Source: Nanobdellota archaeon
GTDB lineage: Archaea > Nanobdellota > Nanobdellia > Parvarchaeales > Parvarchaeaceae
DNA length: 35,799 nt
NCBI GenBank assembly: GCA_021807125.1
Contig: JAKAPK010000002.1
Location: 104,454 to 140,252, forward strand
Direction of reading: 5' to 3'
Part shown: piece after piece, positions 10,394 through 26,343 of the stretch
How the letters are laid out: each line of letters starts with the position of its first letter
Position numbering within the stretch: position 1 is the stretch's first letter
The notes under the pieces: model-generated
What the model was told of the DNA's origin: nothing
Seen by the model: only the letters and a program-made list of their open reading frames with translations
Database searches by the model: none
Translations under genes and position numbers: made by a program

Positions 10394-12172
10394 ATGCAAA
10401 ACAGGAGTCTTACCTCTTTTGACCTATTCAGGTTTATAGAAGAACTCGATTATCTACAAGGCGCAGTCATTAGAGACGTCCGGAGCGGAAAAAATGAGAT
10501 ATTTATTGAACTTTATAAAAACCAGACCTTTTGGTTGAAACTCGTACCTGGGAAATATTTTTCTGTATCTAATACTAAACCAAAAGAGAACATAAAATTT
10601 GGATTTACAGAAATGATGAGGTCATCATTCCTGAATAAAAGGATAAATCTGTCTATGCACAGGTCAGACAGAATCCTAGAACTTGATTCACTGGAAAAGA
10701 AATTAGTTGTCGAGCTGTTCTCAAAGGGTAACATCATTCTAACAAACGGCGGAAACATCGAACATGCTCTTTTTACAAGAAATTACGTATCAAGAAATGT
10801 ATCTGAAGGAGAGGTGCTTATTTATCCTCCAGAAAAGTTTGATTTTTTGCATTCAGAAAAGAAAAGTATCCTAGGCGAACTTGCTAAATCAGATAAACAG
10901 ACTGTAGTGAAGGCGCTTGCCGTAGATTTTTCACTTGGGGGCGTGTACTCAGAGGAAATTTGTTATAGAGCGGGTATAGACAAAATGAAAAGCCCTAATA
11001 AACTTTTAGAAGAGGAAAAAAACGCTATCTATTCTGCTATCGAAGCGATATTGCACGAACCACTTAAACCTAATATAGTAAACTCAGAAGTGCTTTCAGT
11101 TATAGATCTGACGCACCTGCACACGGAAAAAGAGTATTTTAAAACCATAAATGATGCAGTTATAAATTTTTTCAGAGAAGAGACGGTTAGATCTAAGCAG
11201 AAAACTACCACAAAGTCACAGCTTGAAAATGAAATAAATAAACTATCTTCGGAAATAGATTTCATAAAGGAAAACTACGAAAAAATATATACTGCTATAG
11301 AGTTGATTAAAAACTCCGACGTAGAGCTAGAAAAAAGGGTCGAGATGCTGACTAAACTGGGGTGGGGACTTAACGGCAAAACAATAACTTTATTATCGGC
11401 GCCGAATTTGTCTATAGACATAACGCGGCCCATACAATTCGGCACAGAGCAAAGATACACAAAAATAAAGAAACTTAAGAATGCGCTTTCTAAATCCAAA
11501 ATTGTAACTGTAAGGGCATCAAAATTGGACTATGTAGACGAATCGGCATGGTATTCAAAATTCAGATGGTCAACTACTTCATCTGGCAAACTATTCATTA
11601 TTGGGAGAGACAATAACCAAAATGTTTCTTTGATAGAAAAACATGTCGAAAAAACTGACGTCATACTACATGCGGACGTTTTTGGCAGCCCATTCTGTAT
11701 ATTGAAATGCAAAGACGTTGAAGTTACTGATTTGGATTTACAAGAGTGCGCAAAGTTAGTCGGCGCATATTCATCCGCATGGAAAGCCGGGGCAAACAGC
11801 ATTGATGTCTATTATGTAAAACCCGAGCAAATAACAAAGACCCCTCCTTCTGGAGAATATTTGAAACGCGGTTCATTTTATATAAACGGAAAAAGAGAAT
11901 ACATAAAAAAGTCTGCGCTGGAGATATATATAAAAATTGAATTCGACCAAGTCCAATACAAAATAATAGTGTTGCCTTACAGGCCGGAAAGTAATTTTAT
12001 AAAATTAGCCCCTGGAAACATTAAAAGGGAAGAAGTATTAAATAGAATACAAAAAGAATGCAGAGAAAACTTGAGCGTTGAGCTTGAAAGGGACAAGCTG
12101 GATCGTGTACTGCCACAGGGACGGTCGAAAATAGAGAAAATTGTTTTCCTTACAAACACAAGAAAAGTATAA
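10394..12172 (+). CDS. rqcH: NFACT / Rqc2-RqcH family protein (ribosome-associated quality control)
   Basis: NFACT-N type start (TSFDLFRFIEELDYLQGAVIRDVRS), coiled coil, NFACT-R region (SKFRWSTTSSGKLFIIGRDNNQNVSLIEKH...DVILHADVFGSPFCILK). Confidence 0.88.
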   Translation: MQNRSLTSFDLFRFIEELDYLQGAVIRDVRSGKNEIFIELYKNQTFWLKLVPGKYFSVSNTKPKENIKFGFTEMMRSSFLNKRINLSMHRSDRILELDSLEKKLVVELFSKGNIILTNGGNIEHALFTRNYVSRNVSEGEVLIYPPEKFDFLHSEKKSILGELAKSDKQTVVKALAVDFSLGGVYSEEICYRAGIDKMKSPNKLLEEEKNAIYSAIEAILHEPLKPNIVNSEVLSVIDLTHLHTEKEYFKTINDAVINFFREETVRSKQKTTTKSQLENEINKLSSEIDFIKENYEKIYTAIELIKNSDVELEKRVEMLTKLGWGLNGKTITLLSAPNLSIDITRPIQFGTEQRYTKIKKLKNALSKSKIVTVRASKLDYVDESAWYSKFRWSTTSSGKLFIIGRDNNQNVSLIEKHVEKTDVILHADVFGSPFCILKCKDVEVTDLDLQECAKLVGAYSSAWKAGANSIDVYYVKPEQITKTPPSGEYLKRGSFYINGKREYIKKSALEIYIKIEFDQVQYKIIVLPYRPESNFIKLAPGNIKREEVLNRIQKECRENLSVELERDKLDRVLPQGRSKIEKIVFLTNTRKV

Positions 12173-12193
12173 ATAATTGATTAAATCTAAGGT

Positions 12194-12562
12194 TTGAGTA
12201 TGTCATACAAGCACCACAGAGACTCTTTGGTTAGCCTGATAAATGACCTATCAAACGAAGATAGTGCCATAATCGTCGTAGAAGGCAAAAGAGACTTTAA
12301 AGCGTTGACGAGTCTTGGCATACAAAAAGAGAGGATACTGCAGTGCGCCCAGCATCCAGAAAGAGAACTAGAGCAGTTTATAATGACGGGCGCAAAGAAA
12401 GTCATACCCTTATTCGATGCGGATCGCACCGGAAGAATACGGGCGCAAAGATTTTCTAGATATTTTCAAGGACAAACGCTCATAGACAGATCGTATGCAC
12501 AGAGACTTATTAACCTCGGTTTCACGTACACTGAAGAAATGGATGATCGTGCAGTGTACTGA
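12194..12562 (+). CDS. Toprim-domain protein (UPF0292-like)
   Basis: AIIVVEGKRDFKALTSLGI ... VIPLFDADRTGRIRAQRFSRYF: Toprim Glu and DxD motifs. ATG at 12200 is an alternative start. Confidence 0.85.
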   Translation: MSMSYKHHRDSLVSLINDLSNEDSAIIVVEGKRDFKALTSLGIQKERILQCAQHPERELEQFIMTGAKKVIPLFDADRTGRIRAQRFSRYFQGQTLIDRSYAQRLINLGFTYTEEMDDRAVY

Positions 12563-12607
12563 GCTTTTTAGTTTATTAATTAAAACTGTGAGCTTATCCT
12601 ATCTCGT

Positions 12608-12730
12608 ATGAACAAAAAGTACTTAATAGAAAGCACGATAGAATTTGTTAAAGAACGCCTTGGTGGAGAATCAAGCGGACATGACTGATGGCATCCGTTT
12701 CGCGTATTTAAGACCGCCATACATATTTAA
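12608..12730 (+). pseudogene. N-terminal remnant of an HD-domain phosphohydrolase (nonsense mutation plus truncation)
   Basis: MNKKYLIESTIEFVKERLGGESSGHD-TGA-WHPFRVFKTAIHI-TAA; matches the (E)FVKxxLxGxSSGHDWWHxxRVxxxA start of HD hydrolases with the first Trp codon read as TGA; the rest of the domain is missing. Confidence 0.75.
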
Positions 12731-12733
12731 AAA

Positions 12734-14434
12734 TCAACCAAGTCGGTATGCAAATATGACGCCATTACTGTAATTACCCCCTGTGTTTGTAGTGCCATAC
12801 AATGTGTTATTATATAACGCTAATGAACCTAAAGGATATTCCCCATCAGGAGATACACCTGTTAAATTATGAAGTATTGTGAATCCTGTGCCGCCTGTAC
12901 TTATACTGAAGATAGTACCACCCCCATCGCTACCCCCATACTTTGTCATACCATATAGAATTCCGCTAGATAATGTAAGAGAACCATAAGGAATTGCTCC
13001 ATCATCTGGATTGCTATTAGCAGAATAATCAGCATTACTGCCATTAAAGCTGTGAAGAATTGTATAATCTGTACCGTTAGTACCAATACTGAAAACTGTA
13101 CCGGCACGGGCGTTGCCTCCAAACTTTGTCATACCATATAGAATTCCGCTAGATAATGTAAGAGAACCATAAGGCTCTGCTCCGTCTGTTTTTACACCGA
13201 CGTAATACGGGTTAGTGCCATTGAAGTTATGGAGAATTGTATAACCCGTACCATTAAGATTAATACTATAAATCGTCCCATCATCGTAGTTGCCTCCTAA
13301 TTCCGTCATGCCATAAAGAGTATTACCTGATAACATCAAGGAACCTATGGGAGCGACCCCGTCCCTGCTATTACCTGTAAAAAGAGGATTACTGCCTATG
13401 AAATTATGAATAGTCGTATAACCTGTACCATTGATATTTACTTTGAATATTACACCTTCATTGGCGCTACCACCGCTTTCTGTCGTCCCATATAAAGTAT
13501 TATCAGATAGTATCAAAGTGCTTTCAGGATTCGCTCCGTCTGTAAGATTGAAAACGTGAAGAAGACTATAACCACTGCCATTGATATAAATTTTGAAGAT
13601 TACTCCATTATTCCCATTGTAGGCCCTGCCACCATCTGTAGTCGTGCCGTAAAGAGTATTACCTGATAACAGAAGAGAGCCATAAGGGTATATACCTTCA
13701 AGCGTAGTGAAATTATAAAGGACCTTATAGTCTGTTCCATTGTCATTAACCCTAAAGATAGTTCCATAGGCACCAAATGTGTAGTTACCTCCACTTCTTG
13801 TCATGCCGTAGAGCACACCGTTCGATTGAAGTAGTGTAGTGTAATACGGATTCGCACCATCATTCGGAGCTCCAATAAACTCGTGCAGAATGCTGTACAC
13901 ATGCGAGTTAGTTTTTGTGGAATTAGATAAATTAGTAGTGCTACTACTGGCGGTGAAATTGACATTAACAGTTATAAAGGTTGACCCTATTAGAACTCCT
14001 GAGGACGGGGACGCCGTATATCTAACTCCGGATACTATTACCGTACTGATTGAATAACTGCAGCCGGTCGGCTGTCCAACAGAATTATATGTCCAGTTAA
14101 ACTCATAGTTTACAAGCATACCTGCTGATACAGAGGGTTCCGTGACTCCATTACAGAAAGTTACTTGCCATGTAGTATTAAATGGGAGGCCGTTTTCAAT
14201 AATTTGAACATTTGTGAGATAAACGGGTTGGTTGGAATTTATTTTTGATGTATTACCTGTAGTGCTTGTATTGCCAGAAGGCGACCCAGTAAGGTTAGTG
14301 CCAGTTGTTGTTACCCCAAACGGTATAATGCCGACGCCAAAAAGAAGCAAAATCACAATTACAACTGTAACTATTACAAAAATAATTAAAATGCGCTTCT
14401 TGTTTGGAGACGATTTGCGTTTTTCACCCGCCAT
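12734..14434 (-). CDS. Membrane-anchored surface protein with tandem GloVer-type (TIGR03803-like) repeats
   Basis: Seven LYG(M/T)T..GG units of the form GTIFxIxxNGTxYxILHNFNG...DGAxPYGSLxLSxxxLYGMTxxGG; N-terminal KKRILIIFVIVTVVIVILLLFG TM and an IIENGLPFNTTWQVTFCNG motif. The track ORF starts at 14479; ATG at 14434 (MAGEKRKSS) is more likely. Confidence 0.8.
   Translation of the reverse strand: MAGEKRKSSPNKKRILIIFVIVTVVIVILLLFGVGIIPFGVTTTGTNLTGSPSGNTSTTGNTSKINSNQPVYLTNVQIIENGLPFNTTWQVTFCNGVTEPSVSAGMLVNYEFNWTYNSVGQPTGCSYSISTVIVSGVRYTASPSSGVLIGSTFITVNVNFTASSSTTNLSNSTKTNSHVYSILHEFIGAPNDGANPYYTTLLQSNGVLYGMTRSGGNYTFGAYGTIFRVNDNGTDYKVLYNFTTLEGIYPYGSLLLSGNTLYGTTTDGGRAYNGNNGVIFKIYINGSGYSLLHVFNLTDGANPESTLILSDNTLYGTTESGGSANEGVIFKVNINGTGYTTIHNFIGSNPLFTGNSRDGVAPIGSLMLSGNTLYGMTELGGNYDDGTIYSINLNGTGYTILHNFNGTNPYYVGVKTDGAEPYGSLTLSSGILYGMTKFGGNARAGTVFSIGTNGTDYTILHSFNGSNADYSANSNPDDGAIPYGSLTLSSGILYGMTKYGGSDGGGTIFSISTGGTGFTILHNLTGVSPDGEYPLGSLALYNNTLYGTTNTGGNYSNGVIFAYRLG
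12940..12991. repeat. 52-bp exact intragenic repeat, copy A
   Basis: actttgtcataccatatagaattccgctagataatgtaagagaaccataagg, identical to 13123-13174. Confidence 0.9.
13123..13174. repeat. 52-bp exact intragenic repeat, copy B
   Basis: Identical to 12940-12991; period 183 bp = 61 codons, one protein repeat unit. Confidence 0.9.
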
Positions 14435-14889
14435 ATAAAAAAGATACCTACATTCCTTAAAAAGTTTATGTATCTGCAAAAGTTTTGGACGCTATACTAT
14501 ACAGCGCAAAAGTCCTATTAGAAGTCGCTTGATTTTTCTTATAGAATGTTATAAACCAATTAGCCGTATTTAGGCTGATCCATCGCTTTTCTATCGAAAA
14601 TAACATTTATCACTAAACCTAACTGATGAATTTAGCATAAAGACCTGTTGACTACGGCGATAAACACTTAGTAAAAAATCATTTGCTTAGCACTTTGCTC
14701 TCTACTAGAAAGCCAGTAGAGCTCAATGTGTGAAAACGCCAATGAACTCTATAAACCTTAAGCAGTAAGCGATTAAAAGCACGCTGTGAAAGCCGACTAC
14801 TTAAGTTTCCATCCTTTTCTTTTTGAAAAACGCCAATGACCAATCCGCCTTAAATCTAGTGTAGATTACTACCAATTGTCGATGAAACT

Positions 14890-15711
14890 ATGCGGAAGTA
14901 CAGCAATGAAGTAAAAACAGAAGCAAGAGAACTGGTAAAAAGTGGACTTTCCAGGAACGAAGCGGCTAGAAGGTTAGGATTAAGTTCGAACTATGTTTGC
15001 AATCTGTGCTTAGACCTTACGCTGAAAAGACCTAATCGTTATCCTCAAGAACTGACAGAAAGAGCAAGAAAACTTGCTAACGAAGGGATGAGTAAGCTAT
15101 TGATATCCAAAGAACTTGGTGTATCTTATCAGTGGGTTAAGGAACATCTTTATGACATAAACGCTTCCAAATCGCTTAGCACGGAAACCATAGAAAAGAT
15201 AAAAGACCTATTTGCACGTGGCGTATCAAAGACTGACATATCCAAAAGACTGCATTTATCGCCTACTACGATAGGAAAGTACACGCCAAGAACGTCTCGT
15301 AAGCAGTACGATAAAGAAACTGACAGAAGGGCTGTTGCAATGGTAAGAGGAGAACTAAGCAGGGAATCTACGGCTGCGATTCTTGGAGTCTCCTACAAAT
15401 TCGTCTGGACTCGGACGAAGAGAATAAAAAGAGACGGAAACGTTATTTTCGGCAAGCGGATGTTCAGAATACTAGGTGAGTTGCTATGTAAGGGATACTT
15501 TTTCGCAAGAAAGAACGAGATACCTGTTTGTAGGTTCATGTCAAACTATCTACCGATAAAACTCGTAGTTTACAGAAGAAAGTTTGTATTCGTGGTGCCC
15601 GGGAGAGAACAATGTGCCGCCTCAGAATTCGTTGCGAGATACTATCATAACCATATCGGATCTAGAAGACTAAAACGAATATCTACATGTTTTGCGCCTA
15701 AAAATGTGTAA
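14890..15711 (+). CDS. DNA-binding protein with four tandem Hin/resolvase-like HTH units and a novel C-terminal domain
   Basis: Repeated ~45-50 aa units: ARELVKSGLSRNEAARRLGLSSNYVCNL; ARKLANEGMSKLLISKELGVSYQWVKEHL; IKDLFARGVSKTDISKRLHLSPTTIGKY; AVAMVRGELSRESTAAILGVSYKFVWTR. Confidence 0.75.
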   Translation: MRKYSNEVKTEARELVKSGLSRNEAARRLGLSSNYVCNLCLDLTLKRPNRYPQELTERARKLANEGMSKLLISKELGVSYQWVKEHLYDINASKSLSTETIEKIKDLFARGVSKTDISKRLHLSPTTIGKYTPRTSRKQYDKETDRRAVAMVRGELSRESTAAILGVSYKFVWTRTKRIKRDGNVIFGKRMFRILGELLCKGYFFARKNEIPVCRFMSNYLPIKLVVYRRKFVFVVPGREQCAASEFVARYYHNHIGSRRLKRISTCFAPKNV

Positions 15712-15716
15712 AAAGC

Positions 15717-15764
15717 GTTGTAGTTAAAATGCCATTAAAACTACAGAAAAAATTAAACTACAAC
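15717..15764. repeat. Dispersed hairpin repeat, copy 1
   Basis: gttgtagttaaaatgccattaaaactacagaaaaaattaaactacaac; ends form a 9-bp inverted repeat GTTGTAGTT/AACTACAAC; 25-nt core identical to copy 2. Confidence 0.9.
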
Positions 15765-15848
15765 ATCAATGAAAAGTTAGGTTATTTATACAATATTATT
15801 AGAATAATAAAACGCAAGCGCAGGTAGGCGTGCTTGAGCGGTAGAACG

Positions 15849-17261
15849 TTATGTGTCTAATGCTAGTTCAGCTAACTTATTCTGTATCTTTCCCATAAAG
15901 GGATATTTTAAATCGACTAGGCGGGGAATAATTTTTAAATCCAATTGCCTTTTCTTTTTAATATAGCTAAATCCTCTCTTATCAGATATTTCACCTAAAT
16001 AAATTTTGTAATTACATTGAGTATGTGCTGGATTTATTCCGAGTTCACCTTTTGGCATAACGCCATTAAATGGTGCAACAACGTCTATATTATTCCAATA
16101 ATTCCATATCTGCAAAGCTTTTGATTGATCAAAATAGAAGTAGAAATCTGGATATCTACTAAAATTTCTTAATTCCCTATGTATTAGGTGACCAAGTAGC
16201 GGGCCTAAATAATCCACCAGTTCGTCGAATTCCCATTTTAATTTATCCCATGGGGGTGAGGATATTTTGCTATTGAAAAACCGCGCATTTACTAAAAATG
16301 ATAATCTATTTTTTATATAATCAAAAAGTTTATCTGGCTCAACATTACTAACTCCCTCCAGTTTGATTGTTTTAATTTCTTTCGCAAGCTGTGGAATATT
16401 TGGATTAAACCGGCCTAGATCAAAGTCTTTTCCTAGTCCTGGATACAAATTAAACATCAATTCTTTATAGCCCCAATTATTAAATTCTCCTAATTCTTTG
16501 TAGGCGTTTGTCATTTTATCGGTAGAGTAGAGCTGTAAGTATTCTGCGACTGCTTCGAAGTAAATATAACCTAATATTGGTAAATTTTGTATCGCGCTAT
16601 TCAAAATGTCGAAAAACTCTTTTGTGCCAATTTTATAATTTTCATAGTGTATTTTATTGCAGATAGCCAAAAATTCTATTGATTTTTTAATTCGCAACAA
16701 TACTACACTTTTTAGTTTATAACGTTCCTCTTGTGAAAGAAGATATTCTAGTTGTTTAAATAATTGTAAATGTACCGCCCCCAATCTTAGATAATCAATT
16801 CCAGCAAGTCTATTAGATACAGATTTCGGTACGTCTATTTCTATAATTAAAGGTTTTATTTCATGCATAGCTTTCGTGTCGGTTAAAAACATATTTAATT
16901 CTTTTTTAAAAATATATCGACCCAGATTATGCAAACGCAAAACATTATCTTCATTTATTAAGGGAGTACAATATATACTACCTACTAAACAGCCACCGCT
17001 TGCGCATAACTTATGTTCGTCCATTACCACATCGAAATGTCTTGTAAAATGCAACAATTGAATTTTTTTCTTTTCTAGTAAATCAAACATGGAATTTTTT
17101 ATGAGAAGCTTGCCATTCGGGCTTTCATCGACTAAGTACTTCCACTGTTCAATTTCATCTCGTTTAGTTAAGCTATCTTTTAAGTAAGAAATTTGGTGTT
17201 TTAGCGCATCATAAAAAACATGCGCATCGGCCCAATTATCCCACAGAGTATCGTTTTCCAT
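15849..17261 (-). CDS. Uncharacterised 470-aa protein
   Basis: Continuous AT-rich ORF; 8-bp spacing to the upstream HD gene (co-directional); no family recognised. Confidence 0.75.
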   Translation of the reverse strand: MENDTLWDNWADAHVFYDALKHQISYLKDSLTKRDEIEQWKYLVDESPNGKLLIKNSMFDLLEKKKIQLLHFTRHFDVVMDEHKLCASGGCLVGSIYCTPLINEDNVLRLHNLGRYIFKKELNMFLTDTKAMHEIKPLIIEIDVPKSVSNRLAGIDYLRLGAVHLQLFKQLEYLLSQEERYKLKSVVLLRIKKSIEFLAICNKIHYENYKIGTKEFFDILNSAIQNLPILGYIYFEAVAEYLQLYSTDKMTNAYKELGEFNNWGYKELMFNLYPGLGKDFDLGRFNPNIPQLAKEIKTIKLEGVSNVEPDKLFDYIKNRLSFLVNARFFNSKISSPPWDKLKWEFDELVDYLGPLLGHLIHRELRNFSRYPDFYFYFDQSKALQIWNYWNNIDVVAPFNGVMPKGELGINPAHTQCNYKIYLGEISDKRGFSYIKKKRQLDLKIIPRLVDLKYPFMGKIQNKLAELALDT

Positions 17262-17269
17262 TTAGATGC

Positions 17270-18031
17270 CTATAAGCTTAATAACACGCTATTTATATTA
17301 TCTTTTCCCATCAGATGCGCCTTTTCACTTTTTACAACCAATTCGTATGCAAAACGCTTTAATTCTATTGGCGCCCGCATCTTAAGAAATTTAGATCTTA
17401 TCCACCATTTCAATTTTGGCAACCTATAACGATCAAGAGCATCTACAACTTTAAGCTCATCAATAATGTCCTTGTTTTTGGCATGCAAACCAAGTCGTAT
17501 TTTATTGAATTGCTCGTATGGTATATCGTGCAAAGCTACCGCTTGTTGGATTAAGCGTCTATCGTTTTTATTTAAAGAAATATTGAATGTCTTAATTACC
17601 TCCTCAAAATTTTCATGAAACCAAAGCGCGGCATTTCTCCCGTGCGGACTCCCTTTATCATCAATCCTACAGACATCATGGATAGCTGCAGCAACGATGA
17701 GATTTATTTCGGCTTTTTTCTCTAAATGGAGTTGCCGCGACAATAAAATGGAATATACTATGCATCTAAAAGTATGTCTTACTCCATGTAGGCTATTATA
17801 TATTTTTGAATTCAAAAACCATTTTTTTGGGACTCTAAACTTTATAACTAATTTTTTAACATCCGAAAAATTAGAAGATAACTTATAATTTTTATTGAAA
17901 TTCGGCTTGTTCTTTATAATCCAATTTAGCGTCTCCGAGTCCATATACTGAAGACTCGGCAAGTTTTTATTGGCTGCTTGTTCGACGAGACTCATTTTTT
18001 GCGGTCCGTTCTGCTCTATATTTATCATCAA
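17270..18031 (-). CDS. HD-domain phosphohydrolase
   Basis: SLHGVRHTFRC ... AAAIHDVCRIDDKGSPHGRNAALWFHE ... VALHDIP ... VVDALDRYRLPKL: H..HD..D metal-binding pattern. Start may be ATG at 17995 (MSLVEQAANKN). Confidence 0.85.
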   Translation of the reverse strand: MMINIEQNGPQKMSLVEQAANKNLPSLQYMDSETLNWIIKNKPNFNKNYKLSSNFSDVKKLVIKFRVPKKWFLNSKIYNSLHGVRHTFRCIVYSILLSRQLHLEKKAEINLIVAAAIHDVCRIDDKGSPHGRNAALWFHENFEEVIKTFNISLNKNDRRLIQQAVALHDIPYEQFNKIRLGLHAKNKDIIDELKVVDALDRYRLPKLKWWIRSKFLKMRAPIELKRFAYELVVKSEKAHLMGKDNINSVLLSL

Positions 18032-18551
18032 TTTCTTTTGTGAACTTTTTTAGTTCCTCATCCGTCATCAACTTTAAGTTTAGTTCTTTTGCTATCGCCG
18101 CTATCTTTTTCTCCGCAGCAGGTTTTTGATCTAGGCTATTCACAACTATTTCAAGCTCTACATGATAACCCCATTCTTCGCTGTATTTAATGGCGAATTC
18201 TACTCCGCTATAAATAAAATTATGTCTTTTTTGGAAAGATTTCTGCACATCTGTAAAACCTAATAACTCAAACATTTTTGCGGAATTTTCAACATCGGAT
18301 TGAGAGATTGGGATTTCTATCTCCTCAAAATTGCTTCCGTGCCCTATTTTATTAAGTTTTAGAACCAACTTAGCGGATCTTTTTGACAGATTATTTACGA
18401 CTTTCAAAAGTTTATCTGGCAATATGAAGAAATATGTTGTCTTATCGTCTTCGCCAAGGTCTTTTTCTGCATGAGCACTTAAGAACTTTAATAATTCATC
18501 GTTTTTCTTTTTATCCACCATCGAACGATATTCTATTTCTATTTGTGGCAT
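17967..18551 (-). CDS. CYTH-domain protein (class IV adenylyl cyclase / triphosphatase superfamily)
   Basis: MPQIEIEYRSMVD ... AKLVLKLNKIG ... FEEIEIPI ... LLGFTDVQKSFQKRHNFIYSGVEFAIKYSEEWGYHVELEIVV: ExExR start and alternating acidic/basic beta-strands. Start reassigned from 18578 to ATG at 18551; the 3' end overlaps the HD gene. Confidence 0.75.
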   Translation of the reverse strand: MPQIEIEYRSMVDKKKNDELLKFLSAHAEKDLGEDDKTTYFFILPDKLLKVVNNLSKRSAKLVLKLNKIGHGSNFEEIEIPISQSDVENSAKMFELLGFTDVQKSFQKRHNFIYSGVEFAIKYSEEWGYHVELEIVVNSLDQKPAAEKKIAAIAKELNLKLMTDEELKKFTKEIDDKYRAERTAKNESRRTSSQ

Positions 18552-18555
18552 ATTA

Positions 18556-19726
18556 TAGCAATCCTCAAAAGTAATCATACACTCCTTCCTTTAATAACTT
18601 TCTGAGTGGATTCAGTGAACACACACTCATGACGACTTCGCGTGGCACGGACTTGACGAACTTTGCCATCTCCAATGCCATCTGCTTTGCGGATCTGAAG
18701 AACCTGTTATTGAGAAGTTTCTTCCGAAGGTAGTTCCACCAGTATTCCTGTGGGTTGAGCCGGGGAGAATAAGGAGGCATGAAGACGACCTTGACGTTAG
18801 GATGCCGTTTGAGGAAAGACTTTATCTTCTTAGAGCTGTGTACGCGGAAGTCATCCATGAATAGGATCATCTTCTCCCCTGGAGACTTATCGATTATTCT
18901 TTTAAGGAACCTTATGAAAGCGGGAGTCTTCGCGCTCCTTGAAGAGGACTGTATGATGTCTCCCGTCAACGGGGAGACCGCACCGAAGACGTTGGACCTC
19001 TCCACGTGATAAGCGGGAGCTTTGACCTCCAACCTTTCGCCGAAAGTCCACCCGTATCCTTTCCTCAACGATCCTCCAGCGGACATCTCGTCCTCGAAGA
19101 GGGCGATTGTGCCGTCCCTGTAAGCCTTCTCCATGGCTTTCAGGGCCTTTTTAGCGAACTTCTGCTGTCTTTTCTTATCAGCCTCCGAATACTCGTGGAC
19201 TGCCTTGACGTAATGCCCGCCCAGGGACAGCAGCATTCTACGTATAGCCTCCCTTGAGACCTCGATCCCTTCCCCCTCAAGGTAAAGCTGTAAGCCCTTC
19301 GTATCCCACATTGTAGTATTGTAACGTGCTTCGATGGGTCGTTTTCCTCAACCAGCTTCTTGAGTTCCTTCTTTTCCTTCTCCCGAAGGAGAGCGACCTT
19401 CCCTCCTTCGGCTTGTCAGCAAGCCTCTTCTCGTGCTTCCATTCCAGTATCCAGTCATAGACTGTAGAACGGTCAACAAGAAAGCGTTTTGCTGTATCAG
19501 AAAGCGTATCACCAATGCTTATCGCATGGAGAGCAAAGTACCTCATCTTCTCATTGGGGTTCCTGCACTCCTTTGCCTTTCTTCTGAGCAACGCTTCGTC
19601 TTCTTCTAACATCTGGGAAATCTCCTCGTCCGACTTCCCTCCACTCCTTACGTATTATAGAACGTTACTTCCCGAAATACTTTTCGGTTAACTATTTTGG
19701 TGTCGGATTACTTATGTGGAGAGCTA
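18556..19726 (-). mobile_element. IS630-family-like insertion sequence
   Basis: Imperfect terminal inverted repeats TAGCAATCCTCAAAAGTAATC... / ...GGATTACTTATGTGGAGAGCTA, flanked by TA on both sides (TA target duplication), enclosing an IS630-like transposase. Confidence 0.75.
18565..19612 (-). pseudogene. IS630-like transposase in three reading frames (two shifts)
   Basis: HTH part in ORF 19277-19612 (DTLSDTAKRFLVDRSTVYDWILEWK...DKPKEG); linker KVALLREKEKKELKKLVEENDPSKHVTI in a second frame; DDE part in ORF 18565-19311 (LFEDEMSAGG, ILFMDDFRVHSSKKI, FMPPYSPRLNPQEYWWNYLRKKL) in a third. Confidence 0.8.
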
Positions 19727-19816
19727 TAATTTAGAGAAAACTATATTTATATATTTATGTAAAATTACATTTAATGAATTAAATATCAGGTTTGTAGAAA
19801 CCGTATAAAAATTAAA

Positions 19817-20554
19817 ATGAAAAACGCAACAAACGATTTGGATAATCTTGAAGAAACCCTGGATAAAATAATAAAGAGTAAAAATTTTACTTATGGATTA
19901 GGAAGAGCATTAAGACATATAAAAAAAGAGATTTTTCTATACAAAAACCACGTAGCAGGCATTAAGAAATGGGGAATGAATAAAAATGGCTTAAGCACAG
20001 AAAAAATCCAAGTTGGTGGTGGCGACCACCCACTAAACGGCTTTTTAAATATCGATATCGTGCCGCCAGCAAATCTTATCTGTGATTTAAGAGAAGGGAT
20101 ACCGCTTCCTGATAAATGTTGCAGCTTAATTTTTAATGAGCATTTTTTAGAACATTTAGATTATCCTACGTCCGCAGAAAAGATAATTAGTGAATTTTCA
20201 CGTATTCTAAAATATAACGGAAAATTAATAATCGGCGTACCAGACGCCGAACTTCTAATAGAAAAATATTTTAGGAGAGATAATAAATTTTATAAAACCG
20301 CGGTTAATCACTGGTTTGGAAAAAGAAATTTGCTCCCGTATATAAAAACTTACATAGATCTTTTGAATTATGGTCTTAGAGACCAAGATGATGATAAAGT
20401 TTATACTCCTCACCTCTGGGCTTACGATTATGAAAAATTAAATTCTTTATTAATATTCGCTGGATTTAGAAAAGTAAATAAGTGGAACTTTGATAAAAAA
20501 CTAGCAAACCCGAGAAGAAAATTTGGTACTTTATACGTTATCGCCACCAGATGA
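19817..20554 (+). CDS. SAM-dependent methyltransferase (COG4627-like)
   Basis: IQVGGGDHPLNGFLNIDIVPPANLICDLREGIPLPDKCCSLIFNEHFLEHLDYPTSAEKIISEFSRILKYNGKLIIGVPDAE. Confidence 0.8.
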   Translation: MKNATNDLDNLEETLDKIIKSKNFTYGLGRALRHIKKEIFLYKNHVAGIKKWGMNKNGLSTEKIQVGGGDHPLNGFLNIDIVPPANLICDLREGIPLPDKCCSLIFNEHFLEHLDYPTSAEKIISEFSRILKYNGKLIIGVPDAELLIEKYFRRDNKFYKTAVNHWFGKRNLLPYIKTYIDLLNYGLRDQDDDKVYTPHLWAYDYEKLNSLLIFAGFRKVNKWNFDKKLANPRRKFGTLYVIATR

Positions 20555-21202
20555 ACCATTTCTTATCTGATTCATAAAATTAATCACTAATTGAGCGGAT
20601 TCGACTACTTTCTTCTCATTGTCAGTAGCGACAAAGCTATCACTATTGTAAATTTCACAATATGGTATTCTTCCTTTAAATTGTGTTATTACTAATCTAT
20701 CCCATTCTCTATTAGCGGCACTTAATTGCAATCCGACCTCATCAATTGTAAATTGTCCCCTGTCTCTTTCATCATAGTTGTGTCTTCTTCTCCATATGCT
20801 ATCTAGATTTGCGGTTAGATACGCGGCGCCATCTAAAACTGTTTTATACCAATCTCTTTGCTTCTCGATATATAAGTTTAGCTTTTTAAGGCGATCTCGT
20901 TTTAAAAGAACGACATGAAATGTTGCTATAATCTTCGGATTTATATTTTTCAAAGCCCGAAGATATTTTGGGAAATAGTTATCAGTTATAAAATCCGCTT
21001 CTGATTGTGATAGATTCTCAAGCGCAACATAGCATTCTTTTTTTGGTACTTCTGGAGATAAAGGATCTACATCGTAACCCATAGCCAACATAAAAACTTT
21101 AGAACTTCTAACGAAAAGAACCGTTTTATCTAGTTCTTGCATTTTTCTTATTACTGTATCTTTACCAGAACAATTAATACCGAATAAACCTATTAATGTC
21201 AT
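20531..21202 (-). CDS. P-loop nucleoside/nucleotide-kinase-like protein
   Basis: N-terminal Walker A LIGLFGINCSGKDTV; 223 aa; 3' end overlaps the convergent methyltransferase by 24 bp. Confidence 0.65.
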   Translation of the reverse strand: MTLIGLFGINCSGKDTVIRKMQELDKTVLFVRSSKVFMLAMGYDVDPLSPEVPKKECYVALENLSQSEADFITDNYFPKYLRALKNINPKIIATFHVVLLKRDRLKKLNLYIEKQRDWYKTVLDGAAYLTANLDSIWRRRHNYDERDRGQFTIDEVGLQLSAANREWDRLVITQFKGRIPYCEIYNSDSFVATDNEKKVVESAQLVINFMNQIRNGSSGGDNV

Positions 21203-21353
21203 ATAGTCACATTTTTACAAAATTTAGAACTCAACTTATTGACTCTATAATCAGAAAAAAATACCATATAATTAATCTAATTGTATTCCATTATTTTATC
21301 CTTTTGTCTAGAATACTATATAATACTTGCCATTACAAATTTAATTAAAACGG

Positions 21354-21405
21354 CATTGTAATTGAAATGCCATTAAAACTACAGAAAAACAATTAAGCTA
21401 CAATG
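21354..21405. repeat. Dispersed hairpin repeat, copy 2
   Basis: cattgtaattgaaatgccattaaaactacagaaaaacaattaagctacaatg; ends CATTGTA/TACAATG inverted; 25-nt core identical to 15727-15751, same orientation. Confidence 0.9.
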
Positions 21406-21631
21406 CTCGTTTTTTGCAAAACTATATCTGGGCTTCCTGGCAGATTTTTTACATTAAGCGCATAATTTTTATCCCGTAGTCTTTAAGAACTTTAAGAAAT
21501 GACTTTTCTATGTCACTATTCTTAGCCTTATTGGCTTTCATCACATTTGAAATCGAAATATTTTTAGACTTTGGTGGCGCCCCTAGTTTTGGTATCGTAC
21601 TATCCTTTCTCTTTTGCGCATCGATTTCCAT
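21406..21631 (-). pseudogene. Vsr-like (very short patch repair) endonuclease remnant, frameshifted and C-terminally truncated
   Basis: ISNVMKANKAKNSDIEKSFLKVLKDYGIKIMRL (cf. Vsr MSxIKxKNTKPExxLRKAL) then, after a 1-nt shift, KNLPGSPDIVLQKTSI (cf. Vsr KDLPGKPDIVFPK); the expected following GCFWH block is absent. Confidence 0.7.
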
Positions 21632-21652
21632 AGAAGGATGCCGTTTTCAAGG

Positions 21653-21790
21653 TTAATTCTTTTTTGGCTTATCCCAATATGGACTTTTACAGCGTGGACA
21701 TACTTTCGGATACTCTTTGCTTCTGGGTGCCCATCTGTGGTGGCAGCGTTCGCATTGATATCCTTTTACCGTTAAGGTTATTTCCGACAT
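21653..21790 (-). CDS. Small zinc-ribbon protein (45 aa)
   Basis: Not in track: MSEITLTVKGYQCERCHHRWAPRSKEYPKVCPRCKSPYWDKPKKN; two CxxC knuckles, the archaeal CxxCxHxWxPR...CPxCKSPYWDxP type. Confidence 0.85.
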   Translation of the reverse strand: MSEITLTVKGYQCERCHHRWAPRSKEYPKVCPRCKSPYWDKPKKN

Positions 21791-21848
21791 AGTATATTAC
21801 TAGTAAAGTAAAGTATTTATATCTATCTTACCTTAGTAATAATATACT
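21791..21848. promoter_or_regulatory. Imperfect inverted repeat in the divergent zinc-ribbon/transposase promoter
   Basis: AGTATATTACTA ... TAGTAATAATATACT around the central TATTTATATCTAT. Confidence 0.5.
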
Positions 21849-21863
21849 ACATAAGGATATACT

Positions 21864-23444
21864 ATGAAAGCGCTAACATTAAACGCAAAGGATAGACATA
21901 AGATTACAGCTGATATCTACAAAGTAACCGAGCTAAATCCAAAGCGGCTATCAAAAATTTTACGTAATTTAACTTTAGACGACACGATAAGAAAACGCTA
22001 TGAAGTCTCTAAAGATGCTCTGCTTAAGCTGCTAATACTGGGTAAGCTCAAGGGAATAAAGTTCGATATAAAATTAGTAGATTATCTAAAAACGCGTCCA
22101 GACGAAGCTTTAGACCTTGGGTTCTATAAAGGTGAGAACGGTAATGTAAAACTACCAGATAGGCGTACGCTCGGTTTGTTTAGAAAGAACCTTACTAAAG
22201 ACGAATCGGCACTGGTTGGTTTCGTGGCGAAAACTATAGAAGACGCGCTTTACACTAAGGGCACGTTTTTAGATCTTAGCTGTGCAAGGCAAGAACCAGA
22301 AAAAGAAGTTCTTAGTAAATCTGCTATTTACAAAGCTACGCAGGAGAAAACAAAGGAATTGAGCAGGATGATAAAGAAGACTTTGCTTAAACAACTAAAA
22401 GACCGTACTAAATACAATTCCATATACAAAGACGAGGAATTCCTTGATTTGCTGATACATATCTCGCTTTCGCAGGATTTCGCAAAAGAAGGCGCAAAAG
22501 TGCTCAGGACTTTGAAGGATTCTAAGGTGCCAGTCGGCGCTACTTTGTTCTATTATCTGAAGAAATATAGCTTAGAGGAAGTCTCGAATGTATTTGCGAA
22601 GATATTCGACATAACTTTTTCTATGGCTGAGAAGGCTGGCCTATTGTCTAGAATGACCAAGCACACGATAGCTATAGACTGTCATGAATGGTTCTATTAC
22701 GGCAAGCAGATAGAAGGCGGTTTCGTAGTAGGTAAGAAACCTGGGAGAGGGACTTTAAGATGCTTTAAGTTCATCACGCTTGACATAGTCGACAAAGAAT
22801 GTAGGTTTACGTTGCTCGCATTGCCAGTGATAAAATCTAAAGACGAACAGGTCACACAGGTAGACCTTGTGAAACGCTTGATAGAAAGAGCTTTGGGCAA
22901 GATAAAGATATGGCGTGTCCTTATGGATAGAGGCTTCCTTGGTGCCGATATTATAAATTTCCTTAAATCTAAAGGCCTTGAATTCATAATCCCTGCTAAA
23001 TCAAGCAACAAAGCGACAGTCAATTCTAAACTGCTTGAACCAAACCCAGTAGCTGTGATAAAAGGCGAAATGATGGGTAATTCTAGAGTAAACCTGATAG
23101 TCATAAAAGAATATGGCCACAGATACGGTTTCTTTACGAATATAGAGACTGGTCTAGACGACGATAAAATGGCGATGGGGATAGCAGACTTTTATTCTAG
23201 ACGCTGGCAGATCGAGACCGGTTATCGCGTAAAGAAGTACGCGTTCAGAGGCAAGACTACCTCGAGAAAATACATAATACGTTATATTTATTTCATGCTT
23301 TCTGTCGTATTGTATAACTTCTGGATCCTGATAAACGGCTTGCTTATTTTTGAGCTAAATCTAAAGGGCGACAAGCCGATTTTGTCTGCCAAAGTATTCG
23401 ACGCGATTCTTTACAAGACAAGGGCGTTAGAAGACATTACATGA
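21864..23444 (+). CDS. DDE transposase, IS4/ISH3-like
   Basis: TIAIDCHEWFYYG, VLMDRGFLGADIINFLKSKGLEFIIPAK, YSRRWQIETGYRVKKYAFRGKTTSR...YFMLSVVLYNFWILIN. Confidence 0.8.
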   Translation: MKALTLNAKDRHKITADIYKVTELNPKRLSKILRNLTLDDTIRKRYEVSKDALLKLLILGKLKGIKFDIKLVDYLKTRPDEALDLGFYKGENGNVKLPDRRTLGLFRKNLTKDESALVGFVAKTIEDALYTKGTFLDLSCARQEPEKEVLSKSAIYKATQEKTKELSRMIKKTLLKQLKDRTKYNSIYKDEEFLDLLIHISLSQDFAKEGAKVLRTLKDSKVPVGATLFYYLKKYSLEEVSNVFAKIFDITFSMAEKAGLLSRMTKHTIAIDCHEWFYYGKQIEGGFVVGKKPGRGTLRCFKFITLDIVDKECRFTLLALPVIKSKDEQVTQVDLVKRLIERALGKIKIWRVLMDRGFLGADIINFLKSKGLEFIIPAKSSNKATVNSKLLEPNPVAVIKGEMMGNSRVNLIVIKEYGHRYGFFTNIETGLDDDKMAMGIADFYSRRWQIETGYRVKKYAFRGKTTSRKYIIRYIYFMLSVVLYNFWILINGLLIFELNLKGDKPILSAKVFDAILYKTRALEDIT

Positions 23445-23514
23445 CTTCTAGACTACGGCTTTCTTGAATAGTCCTAGTCGTACTTATAAAAGAAAACTAA
23501 AAATTTACTCTTCT

Positions 23515-23572
23515 CATCGATTTTTATTACGCTAGGTTCAAGCGTTATCTAAGACTGGTTCTAAAATCGATG
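23515..23572. repeat. 10-bp perfect inverted repeat enclosing a second hairpin
   Basis: CATCGATTTT (23515-23524) / AAAATCGATG (23563-23572); internal ACGCT-AGGTTCA-AGCGT. Confidence 0.75.
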
Positions 23573-23638
23573 GATTTATTGAATACTTGATAAGTCGATT
23601 TAAGAGCTATTGGCACTTTTCGCTCTACTGGAAAGCTT

Positions 23639-23710
23639 AGCCTCGGGCGAGGATCGAACTCGCGACCTTTTCCTTACCAAGGAAACGCTCTACCACTGAG
23701 CCACCGAGGC
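23639..23710 (-). tRNA. tRNA-Thr (GGT)
   Basis: GCCTCGG TG GCTC AGTGGTA GAGC G TTTCC TTGGTAA GGAAA AGGTC GCGAG TTCGATC CTCGC CCGAGGC T; complete cloverleaf. Confidence 0.97.
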
Positions 23711-23755
23711 GTATATTTTTAGGATAAAGCAGACTTTACTTATAAAGAAAGAATC

Positions 23756-23971
23756 TTAACCTGCGTATTCTATCACAAACGCTTCAATTTTCTTATCTTT
23801 TGCGAGACGGGTTATGTAGCCGGCTATCTTATTCCTTGTAGTTTTATCCGTACGTATCAAAGAAGTAAGTATTTGTTTATTAGTATCAAAATTATCACTA
23901 AATTCATCCTTATATTTTTTGAGTATATCTACCGTGTATCTCCTTATACTCCTTCCTCTTATCCTTCCCAT
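23756..23971 (-). CDS. rps17e: Ribosomal protein S17e
   Basis: MGRIRGRSIRRYTVDILKKYKDEFSDNFDTNKQIL...RNKIAGYITRLAK. Confidence 0.92.
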   Translation of the reverse strand: MGRIRGRSIRRYTVDILKKYKDEFSDNFDTNKQILTSLIRTDKTTRNKIAGYITRLAKDKKIEAFVIEYAG

Positions 23972-24043
23972 TTGTCTATTTAAAAATAGGTGAATATTTA
24001 AGCCTTTGTATCGCTTGCAGTTATCGATATCCTGTATGCGGAT

Positions 24044-24316
24044 TTAAACTATGTCCTCTTCCGCCACTACAACGAAATCGCCAACAGAAATAACTGAATT
24101 ATATGGTATTTCTTGGTTTCCAGTTTCGTCCTTTTCGAACTGAAATGAATTAGCGTATGACGTTGGATTTTTTATAGATAAATAGACTATTTCTCCTGTC
24201 CTAACCTCATATACCAGATCAGCAACAACTCCTATTTTTTTACCGCTCTTGCCGACCACGGTCTTGCCAACCATCGAGCGTGCATCAACACGTTCCCCTT
24301 TTGTTATGCCTGTCAT
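24044..24316 (-). CDS. PRC-barrel domain protein
   Basis: DARSMVGKTVVGKSGKKIGVVADLVYEVRTGEIVYLSI ... IPYNSVISVGDFVVV. Confidence 0.85.
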   Translation of the reverse strand: MTGITKGERVDARSMVGKTVVGKSGKKIGVVADLVYEVRTGEIVYLSIKNPTSYANSFQFEKDETGNQEIPYNSVISVGDFVVVAEEDIV

Positions 24317-24408
24317 AATGCCTCCGTCACAGGTGTGGGTTTATTCAACCACTCGAAACACCCTTCATACCTATACTATACGGAGAAGGTTTTAAAGCTT
24401 TTTTGGCG

Positions 24409-24900
24409 TTAAACTGAGAATATGAATACTTTATCATTTTCTATCTGTAATACTGAAAATGGGTTTAAATATGAGAGGTCGATTCCAGATCTCTCTAATA
24501 CAGAGATTACGATCTTTCCGCCCGGCTTTGCAAAAAGTAGTGCCTTGTTTATGCACGTACTTCTCTGAGACTCGTCCATGTCCTGCAGTACGGTTATGCA
24601 AAAAACTTTATCAAATTTTTCATTTGAAAAAAACTTTTCTATAGGTTCTCTTACTATCTTTACGTCGATCAGTTTCTTTTCCAGTAACTTTTCCGCAAGC
24701 CTAGATGGTTCTACTGCGGTTATATTATATCCCTGCAGCCGCTCTTCAAGTATACCTGTTCCGGCACCTATATCAAGTATATTGTCGCTCTTTGTTACAT
24801 TAACTAATTCTAGGATTCTATCAACTTTTTTTTCCTGCTCTGCCCGGTATAGCGGCTCGTAGCTATTTGCTATAACGTTGTAATACTCAACTGCATCCAT
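24409..24900 (-). CDS. Class I SAM-dependent methyltransferase
   Basis: NILDIGAGTGILEERLQGYNITAVEPS ... FDKVFCITVLQDM ... GGKIVISVL. Confidence 0.85.
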   Translation of the reverse strand: MDAVEYYNVIANSYEPLYRAEQEKKVDRILELVNVTKSDNILDIGAGTGILEERLQGYNITAVEPSRLAEKLLEKKLIDVKIVREPIEKFFSNEKFDKVFCITVLQDMDESQRSTCINKALLFAKPGGKIVISVLERSGIDLSYLNPFSVLQIENDKVFIFSV

Positions 24901-24903
24901 CTT

Positions 24904-26343
24904 TCAGTAAGACTGTCCAAAATAGGCGTTGTATTTTGCGTCATCTCCGCAAAAAGTGCATTTATCGCTTATCAATTTCTCGTTTTCCAACGGTATAACT
25001 CTGGATGTTGCACCGGTTTTTTCCTTTATTGTCTCCTCACATTTTTCTGTGCCGCACCACGAAGTCTTTACTATCGCACCTGCTGACTTTAGTATAGAAA
25101 TAACATTTTTCGTGTCTTTTTCTATAATAATTCTGCTCTCCATTGACTTGCGCGCTTCTTTAAGCATGTTTGCCTGCATTTCATCCAATGCTACTTTAAG
25201 CATTTTTATGTTCTTTAGCTCCAGTGTCGTCTTTTCTTTTTCGTTTCTTTTCTTCACCGAAACCTTTGCTGCTGACGCTTCTTTGATCCCTATTTCAAGC
25301 CTTATAGGCACACCTTTCAATTCATACTCGTTAAATTTCCAGCCAGGCGTGTATCCTTCTCTGGAATCTAATTCACATCTTATGCCGTCCGATTTTATTG
25401 CTGAGACTACATCGTTGGCGTACTTTAGTATCATCTTATCGTCTTTACCATTGAGTATAGGTATGGCTACAACTTGTATCGGGGCTATTCTAGGAGGCAA
25501 TATCAATCCTTTATTGTCGCCATGGACAAGAAACATTATCCCAAGTGCTCTCATTGACATACCCCAAGAAGTTTGGTACACATAGTTCCATTGATTGTTA
25601 TTATCGATGAATTTTATCTCAAATGCTTTCGAGAAATTCTGCCCTAAGTTATGAGAGGTTGCGGCCTGGGAAGCGAAATTGTTAGATAATACGGTCTCCA
25701 CAGTATATGTTGCTACTGCTCCTGCGAATTTTTCGGCTTCGCTCTTTCTTCCAACAAGCACTGGAACTGCAAGTAATTCTTCCATTGCTCCCTTATAGAT
25801 ATTCAGCATGTCCAGAGTATTCTCCTCTGCGCTTTTGTTGTCTGCGAACGCACAGTGTCCTTCCTGCCACAGCACTTCTCTGCCCCTTAAGAAAAGGCGC
25901 GTCTCTTTCGTTTCCCACCTTACAACTGTATTCCATTGGTTTAACAGGATAGGTAAATCCCTGTAACTCTTCACCCACCGAGAATAGCTGTCGTACATTA
26001 TAGTCTCGGATGTTGGTCTAACGGCAAGCTTAACGTCTAAATCCCTATCTCCTCCCTTTGTGACCCATGCTACTTCGGGGGCAAATCCCTTTATGTGGCT
26101 GGCCTCTTTTTTGAGTAGATATTCTGGAATAAGAAGGGGAAAGTATGTATTTTTTACGCCTTTTGCCTTGAATTTGACGTCTAAATATTCTTCTAGAACT
26201 TCCCACATGGCATAGCCATATGGTCTGTATACAGTAAAACCTTTCGCTTCCGAAAAATCCGCCACTTCCGCATTGAGTACTACTTCATTGTACCATTCTA
26301 TCAGGTTCGATTCCCTCATATTCTTCAGTTTTTCAGCGCACAT
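24904..26343 (-). CDS. proS: Prolyl-tRNA synthetase (archaeal/eukaryal type)
   Basis: VRPTSETIMYDSYSRWVKSYRDLPILLNQWNTVVRWE, FLRGREVLWQEGHCAF, C-terminal zinc-binding region. Confidence 0.95.
   Translation of the reverse strand: MCAEKLKNMRESNLIEWYNEVVLNAEVADFSEAKGFTVYRPYGYAMWEVLEEYLDVKFKAKGVKNTYFPLLIPEYLLKKEASHIKGFAPEVAWVTKGGDRDLDVKLAVRPTSETIMYDSYSRWVKSYRDLPILLNQWNTVVRWETKETRLFLRGREVLWQEGHCAFADNKSAEENTLDMLNIYKGAMEELLAVPVLVGRKSEAEKFAGAVATYTVETVLSNNFASQAATSHNLGQNFSKAFEIKFIDNNNQWNYVYQTSWGMSMRALGIMFLVHGDNKGLILPPRIAPIQVVAIPILNGKDDKMILKYANDVVSAIKSDGIRCELDSREGYTPGWKFNEYELKGVPIRLEIGIKEASAAKVSVKKRNEKEKTTLELKNIKMLKVALDEMQANMLKEARKSMESRIIIEKDTKNVISILKSAGAIVKTSWCGTEKCEETIKEKTGATSRVIPLENEKLISDKCTFCGDDAKYNAYFGQSY

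Follow-up and report, generated by a model that had tools for sequence, protein, structure and literature searches.

The window, a 35,799-nt stretch of DNA from a 653-kb MAG (79% complete) of a Nanobdellota archaeon, contains a mobile 4.5-kb cassette with an IS630 element inserted within it. Its five genes encode a P-loop kinase, a methyltransferase, a CYTH protein, an HD protein and a 470-aa protein named P470 (Table 1). The cassette probably carries a small metabolite pathway, or else a defence trait, that crossed between domains. Our preferred, still tentative reading is that the genes of this mobile accessory operon make up a short pathway for a small molecule that is phosphorylated and modified, and that would most likely be derived from a nucleotide or nucleotide sugar.

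Table 1. Features of the cassette in window coordinates (L003, cassette copy of a second archaeon)
Feature	Position	Strand	Basis or remark
Cassette	15714-21409		P-loop kinase, methyltransferase, CYTH, HD, P470 (470-aa protein)
Terminal palindromic (MITE-like) repeat	15714..15766	.	Outer end AGCGTTGTAG
P470, core protein of a new family, 470 aa	15849..17261	-	ORF and homologues; without known domain or fold
HD-superfamily phosphohydrolase (HD-like), 253 aa	17270..18031 (TTG) or 18028 (ATG)	-	Overlaps the CYTH 3' end
CYTH / triphosphate-tunnel protein, 194 aa	17967..18551	-	Pfam CYTH E=2.9e-7
IS630-type insertion within the cassette	18556..19726	-	Homology break against L003, where it is absent; junctions
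Class I SAM-dependent methyltransferase	19817..20554	+	Pfam Methyltransf_11; divergent from CYTH-HD-P470
P-loop protein, nucleotide-kinase-like	20531..21202	-	GINCSGKD loop; weak Pfam AAA_33/AAA_18 matches
Terminal palindromic (MITE-like) repeat, other end	21352..21407	.	Outer end AGCATTGTAG on the minus strand

The initial annotation had described the CYTH, HD and 470-aa ORFs as a cluster of co-directional genes in an AT-rich accessory segment. These ORFs are real and intact, all on the minus strand, and the cassette segment has a G+C content of 32.2% compared to 38.7% for the window. The three genes do form a conserved recurring unit, but the full unit is larger and includes the methyltransferase, the P-loop kinase and terminal repeats.

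The length of the CYTH protein was counted from the ATG used in the uninterrupted L003 copy; a 203-aa ORF starting at 18578 begins within the inserted IS630. The IS630 sits 4 nt upstream of the CYTH start codon, and its transposase is spread across two frames that overlap (18565-19311 and 19277-19612, with DDE_3 and HTH). The insertion cuts the CYTH-HD-P470 operon off from its native upstream region. Because it lies between that region and the CYTH start codon, expression of the operon may need read-through from IS630.

The source genome and 95 related genomes were searched for the cassette. P470 and HD were present together in 2 of these 96 genomes, the source genome and Candidatus Parvarchaeota isolate JOPF222; other DPANN genomes contained only more distant CYTH homologues, with neither HD nor P470. 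The JOPF222 cassette (L003) lies on a short MAG contig and is uninterrupted, with the P-loop kinase, the divergent methyltransferase, CYTH, HD and P470 all retained. Positions 338-4864 of L003 are 96% identical in DNA to 21409-15714 of the window, and the alignment ends at both cassette edges. In contrast, a NEMF-like housekeeping protein shares only 48% identity between the two genomes, which indicates that the cassette moved recently. The dN/dS values between the window and L003 were 0.07 for CYTH, 0.08 for the methyltransferase, 0.11 for both the P-loop gene and P470, and 0.18 for HD. Therefore, all five genes are under purifying selection as proteins (0.07-0.18).

Solo copies of the terminal repeat were found in JOPF222, with 10-bp inverted ends of the AGCGTTGTAG type. 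One copy (L068:1763-1818) is 56 bp long and shows a perfect 9-bp target duplication, GTCGGCTAT. Another, at the L070 end and L069:1-76, is 76 bp long with the perfect 9-bp target duplication TAATCTTCT. These short solo copies with inverted ends and target duplications show that the repeat is a MITE-like element, and similar elements occur in congeners. No target duplication was found around the whole cassette, and the flanks differ in both genomes; thus, the cassette may owe its formation or its movement to recombination between repeats.

Two other origins of the repeats were considered and rejected. For an IS200/IS605 element, the Y1 transposase PF01797 was absent from the source genome, JOPF222 and three congeners (incomplete genomes); PF01797 was detected in 5 of 14 control genomes. 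The core consensus of integron attC sites is GTTRRRY/RYYYAAC, from which the repeat ends GTTGTAG and CTACAAC depart, so an integron cassette was rejected as well. Some further repeat-associated arrangements were observed. JOPF222 contigs C79 and C71 are apparently joined through one MITE-like element. The element in L069/L070 is flanked by two related saccharopine-dehydrogenase-like genes, with aminotransferase- and aldehyde-dehydrogenase-like genes nearby (all read by eye). In genome G016, a 1.45-kb stretch (L075:1501-2956) with a 139-aa ORF and similar repeat ends is possibly another cargo unit.

The earlier expectation that the triad would recur in other genomes was borne out, as the same order was found in the second archaeon and in two prophage-like IMG/VR contigs. 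These contigs (L032 and L033, 67-68% G+C) carry CYTH, HD, P470 and the methyltransferase in that order, with the methyltransferase homologue directly after P470. Identities to the archaeal proteins were 44-46% for CYTH, 35-39% for HD, 45-46% for P470 and 45% for the methyltransferase. The L033 CYTH homologue gave no Pfam CYTH match at E 0.01, and the P-loop gene was not found in the prophage loci. Judged from sequence, CYTH-HD-P470-methyltransferase is a cross-domain operon. It is very improbable that these are chance neighbours, trapped between two mobile repeats and lacking a joint function. Repeats do bound the unit, and the archaeal methyltransferase runs opposite to its orientation in the prophage loci. 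However, these four genes lie next to one another not only in two archaea but also in two divergent prophage-like contigs, and all genes show low dN/dS; the repeated order and the low dN/dS place the cluster beyond chance.

The surroundings of L032 and L033 contain a nucleoside diphosphate kinase (NDK) gene upstream and two NUDIX genes further upstream, and an ABC-transporter gene lies 3' of the methyltransferase in L033/L044. Downstream, the prophage-like loci contain phage genes for DUF6093, an HK97-gp10-like protein and a major tail protein that shares 41% identity with a tail protein of Streptomyces phage ZL12; an actinobacterial host is therefore likely for these contigs. A literature search for a CYTH-HD operon in phages found none.

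P470 homologues were found in two Parvarchaeota, in Streptomyces and Nonomuraea plasmids and in seven IMG/VR contigs. The plasmid homologues show 30-34% identity, two of them with HD directly upstream, and their neighbours are annotated as dTMP kinase, NUDIX, epimerase and glycosyltransferases. In five further IMG/VR contigs and several plasmids, P470 lies between UDP-glucose dehydrogenase and GT4, accompanied by TauD and GT2. Seven such Streptomyces-type loci (L045-L049, L029 and L030) conserve the order TauD-GT2-UDP-glucose dehydrogenase-P470-GT4 without CYTH or HD, and in L047 a phage portal gene follows this cluster. Across these relatives, P470 stays constant and HD accompanies it most often; CYTH together with the methyltransferase marks one subtype.

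This gene content also bears on whether the genes form a modification pathway for nucleic acids or for cell-surface or virion glycans, borne by phages and later captured by the archaeon. P470 has glycosyltransferases, a TauD dioxygenase, UDP-glucose dehydrogenase and nucleotide kinases as neighbours and occurs in prophage late regions, which would suit such a role. The archaeal cassette, however, lacks glycosyltransferases, phage genes and any recognised DNA-binding protein, and Pfam and PHROG gave no known modification enzyme. We regard this explanation as quite unlikely.

The CYTH protein passes the Pfam CYTH cut-off (30.9 vs 23.2 bits), so its family identity was upheld. Residues E5, E7, R9, K50, K65, R109, E132 and E134 are invariant across the archaeal and prophage proteins, and most of the tunnel charges are retained as judged from alignments. 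Its nearest PDB relatives are the archaeal structures 1yem, 2een and 2dc4. The score against the NCBIfam equivalog of class IV adenylyl cyclase (CyaB) was 30.6 bits, below the cut-off of 57.95. The archaeal CYTH protein studied so far, SaTTM, is a triphosphatase (PMC8233210), and the true class IV cyclases fall into one small cluster, which is bacterial (PMC8233210, PMC8646023). By sequence resemblance, the cassette CYTH looks phosphatase-like rather than cyclase-like. The make/break signalling pair proposed for CYTH and HD was therefore not supported; furthermore, no PADLOC defence model matched, and the unit also holds the methyltransferase and the nucleotide-kinase-like gene.

The HD protein reaches E=4.6e-4 in Pfam HD with 20.9 bits, slightly under the gathering cut-off of 22. 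It is accordingly described as HD-like rather than as a certified member, although the E-value and the intact motif suggest homology. The metal ligands H86, H118-D119 and D197 show no variation among six homologues, in agreement with the H..HD..D residues first noted. The predicted structure (pTM 0.73) weakly resembles HD phosphodiesterases (E about 0.1).

P470 matched no family in Pfam and other profile searches and no known fold. No known housekeeping enzyme was found for it, and the initial annotation was right to leave it unassigned. An alignment of 12 sequences contains about 85 invariant columns, many of them polar; so many invariant polar residues suggest an enzyme. As no fold or catalytic signature was detectable, P470 is treated here as a candidate enzyme. 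A match in G206, from a distant phylum, was discarded as noise (E 7e-4 over 44 positions, with an internal stop codon). The P470 structure, predicted from nine sequences, consists of a strand-rich N-terminal part, a long, dominant helical part and a C-terminal sheet (pTM 0.75, pLDDT 72). Foldseek searches of this model against PDB and BFVD gave no match below E 0.2. We also considered a divergent ADP-ribosyltransferase (ART)-like enzyme with a large helical insert, based on a strand LLHxTR followed by GCLVGxxYC and PKGEIGINP. The conserved H71, Y97 and E406 and the strand pattern of the model recall the ART layout as a visual impression. Neither Foldseek nor profiles matched an ART, however, and the helical insert would be unusual, so that this assignment appears distinctly improbable.

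The cassette is located in the NEMF-ProRS interval near tRNA-Thr (window 12172-24904). This gap measures 12.7 kb here, compared to 1.3-2.5 kb in many congeners (L050-L058), and G001 carries type I restriction-modification genes at the same place; the interval is a variable hotspot in the genus. Two further proteins are encoded in this region. A 273-aa protein with several tandem helix-turn-helix units (14890-15711) adjoins the cassette end, and a 581-aa protein (12734-14479), which combines a membrane segment at its N-terminus with repeated LYGTTxxGG-type motifs, lies beside the island.

The position as mobile cargo in a hotspot shared with a type I restriction-modification system, the prophage copies next to portal or tail genes and the patchy spread over 2 of 96 genomes would be expected of an anti-phage or anti-element conflict system. 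In such a system, CYTH and HD would regulate a nucleotide-type signal or drain nucleotides, and the effector or sensor part would be P470 with the methyltransferase. However, CYTH, HD, P470 and the kinase had no PADLOC match, and the methyltransferase matched only at E=0.018. CYTH is not cyclase-like (PMC8233210), P470 occurs without CYTH or HD in glycosyl and sugar-nucleotide clusters, and no effector domain is recognisable. A conflict system is thus rather unlikely, though a defence role is possible. For the 470-aa protein, the sugar-nucleotide and glycosyl-transfer neighbours fit a metabolite pathway at least as well as an orphan effector.

The metabolite pathway is favoured since it accounts for the co-occurring kinases and NUDIX genes, the methyltransferase and glycosyltransferases, the sugar-nucleotide enzymes, the dioxygenase and the transporter seen in one locus. 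P470 would be its core, a previously undescribed enzyme. A kinase, namely the P-loop protein in archaea and the NDK beside the prophage copies, would charge a precursor, which the methyltransferase would then modify. HD and CYTH would strip phosphate, pyrophosphate or triphosphate from an intermediate or by-product. Gene content and order, conservation, mobility and purifying selection are observed; the enzymatic roles, the order of steps, the substrate and the product are what we infer from the gene set. The pathway is consistent with the joint occurrence of CYTH, HD, P470 and methyltransferase across domains, the nucleotide enzymes near the prophage copies, the invariant polar columns of P470, the likeness of CYTH to archaeal phosphatase-type members and the purifying selection. 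On the other side, P470 offers neither a detectable fold nor a catalytic signature, partner genes vary between clades, and a cargo position next to late genes of phages, in a hotspot where the sister genome G001 has type I restriction genes, would suit defence as well.

It is unusual for a DPANN archaeon and actinobacterial prophages to have a conserved multi-gene unit in common. The present one includes a large, strongly conserved protein family to which no domain, fold or function has been assigned. Together, the archaeal and phage copies provide a small set of genes that lends itself to testing. If the metabolite pathway is correct, a new phosphorylated compound would be made in both domains; if the genes serve defence, they would constitute a new conflict system. 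The bracketing by short repeats points to a way in which such units may move although they lack a transposase of their own. A bolder proposal, which we consider unlikely, is that P470 represents a new enzyme family with a new or strongly embellished fold that makes a novel phosphorylated nucleotide-type metabolite. The movement of the operon between actinobacterial phages and DPANN archaea would then be due to the role of this metabolite in conflict with viruses or hosts.

Compared to known systems, the cassette CYTH resembles SaTTM and 1yem/2een/2dc4 in the ExEx(K/R) start, the paired C-terminal glutamates and most tunnel basic residues. It differs from them in its ExExR rather than ExExK N-terminus, although R is also common in DPANN relatives, in K-x-V/T for the R-x-R of relatives (SaTTM numbering mapped by pattern) and in its place in a mobile operon. 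The cassette HD shares H..HD..D with known HD phosphohydrolases and phosphodiesterases, and its all-helical model is weakly like class I PDEs. It stands apart as its own subfamily, below the Pfam cut-off, with the extra motifs HG, HDxP and LDRYRLP.

The cassette resembles MITE-bracketed composite transposons in its short palindromic repeats with 10-bp outer inverted ends, the solo copies of which duplicate 9 bp. Unlike these transposons, it has no transposase of its own, only that of the inserted IS630, and no target duplication of the whole unit. Archaeal integron cassettes are small gene units with palindromic-repeat flanks that are exchanged across domains (PMC9668308). Palindromic flanks and cross-domain exchange are shared, whereas the present cassette is multi-gene with a divergent gene, and its repeats lack the attC core consensus. 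In Streptomyces coelicolor, SCO0381 encodes a glycosyltransferase, SCO0382 a UDP-glucose dehydrogenase and SCO0383 a hypothetical protein (PMC2000904, PMC2267785), and the SCO0381-0401 deoxysugar/glycosyltransferase cluster responds to bldA, AdpA and AfsS (PMC2000904, PMC4021200, PMC2267785). The order of SCO0381-0383 is of the GT2-UGD-P470 type; by this likeness in gene order, SCO0383 is a candidate P470 relative, and a link between the two is possible.
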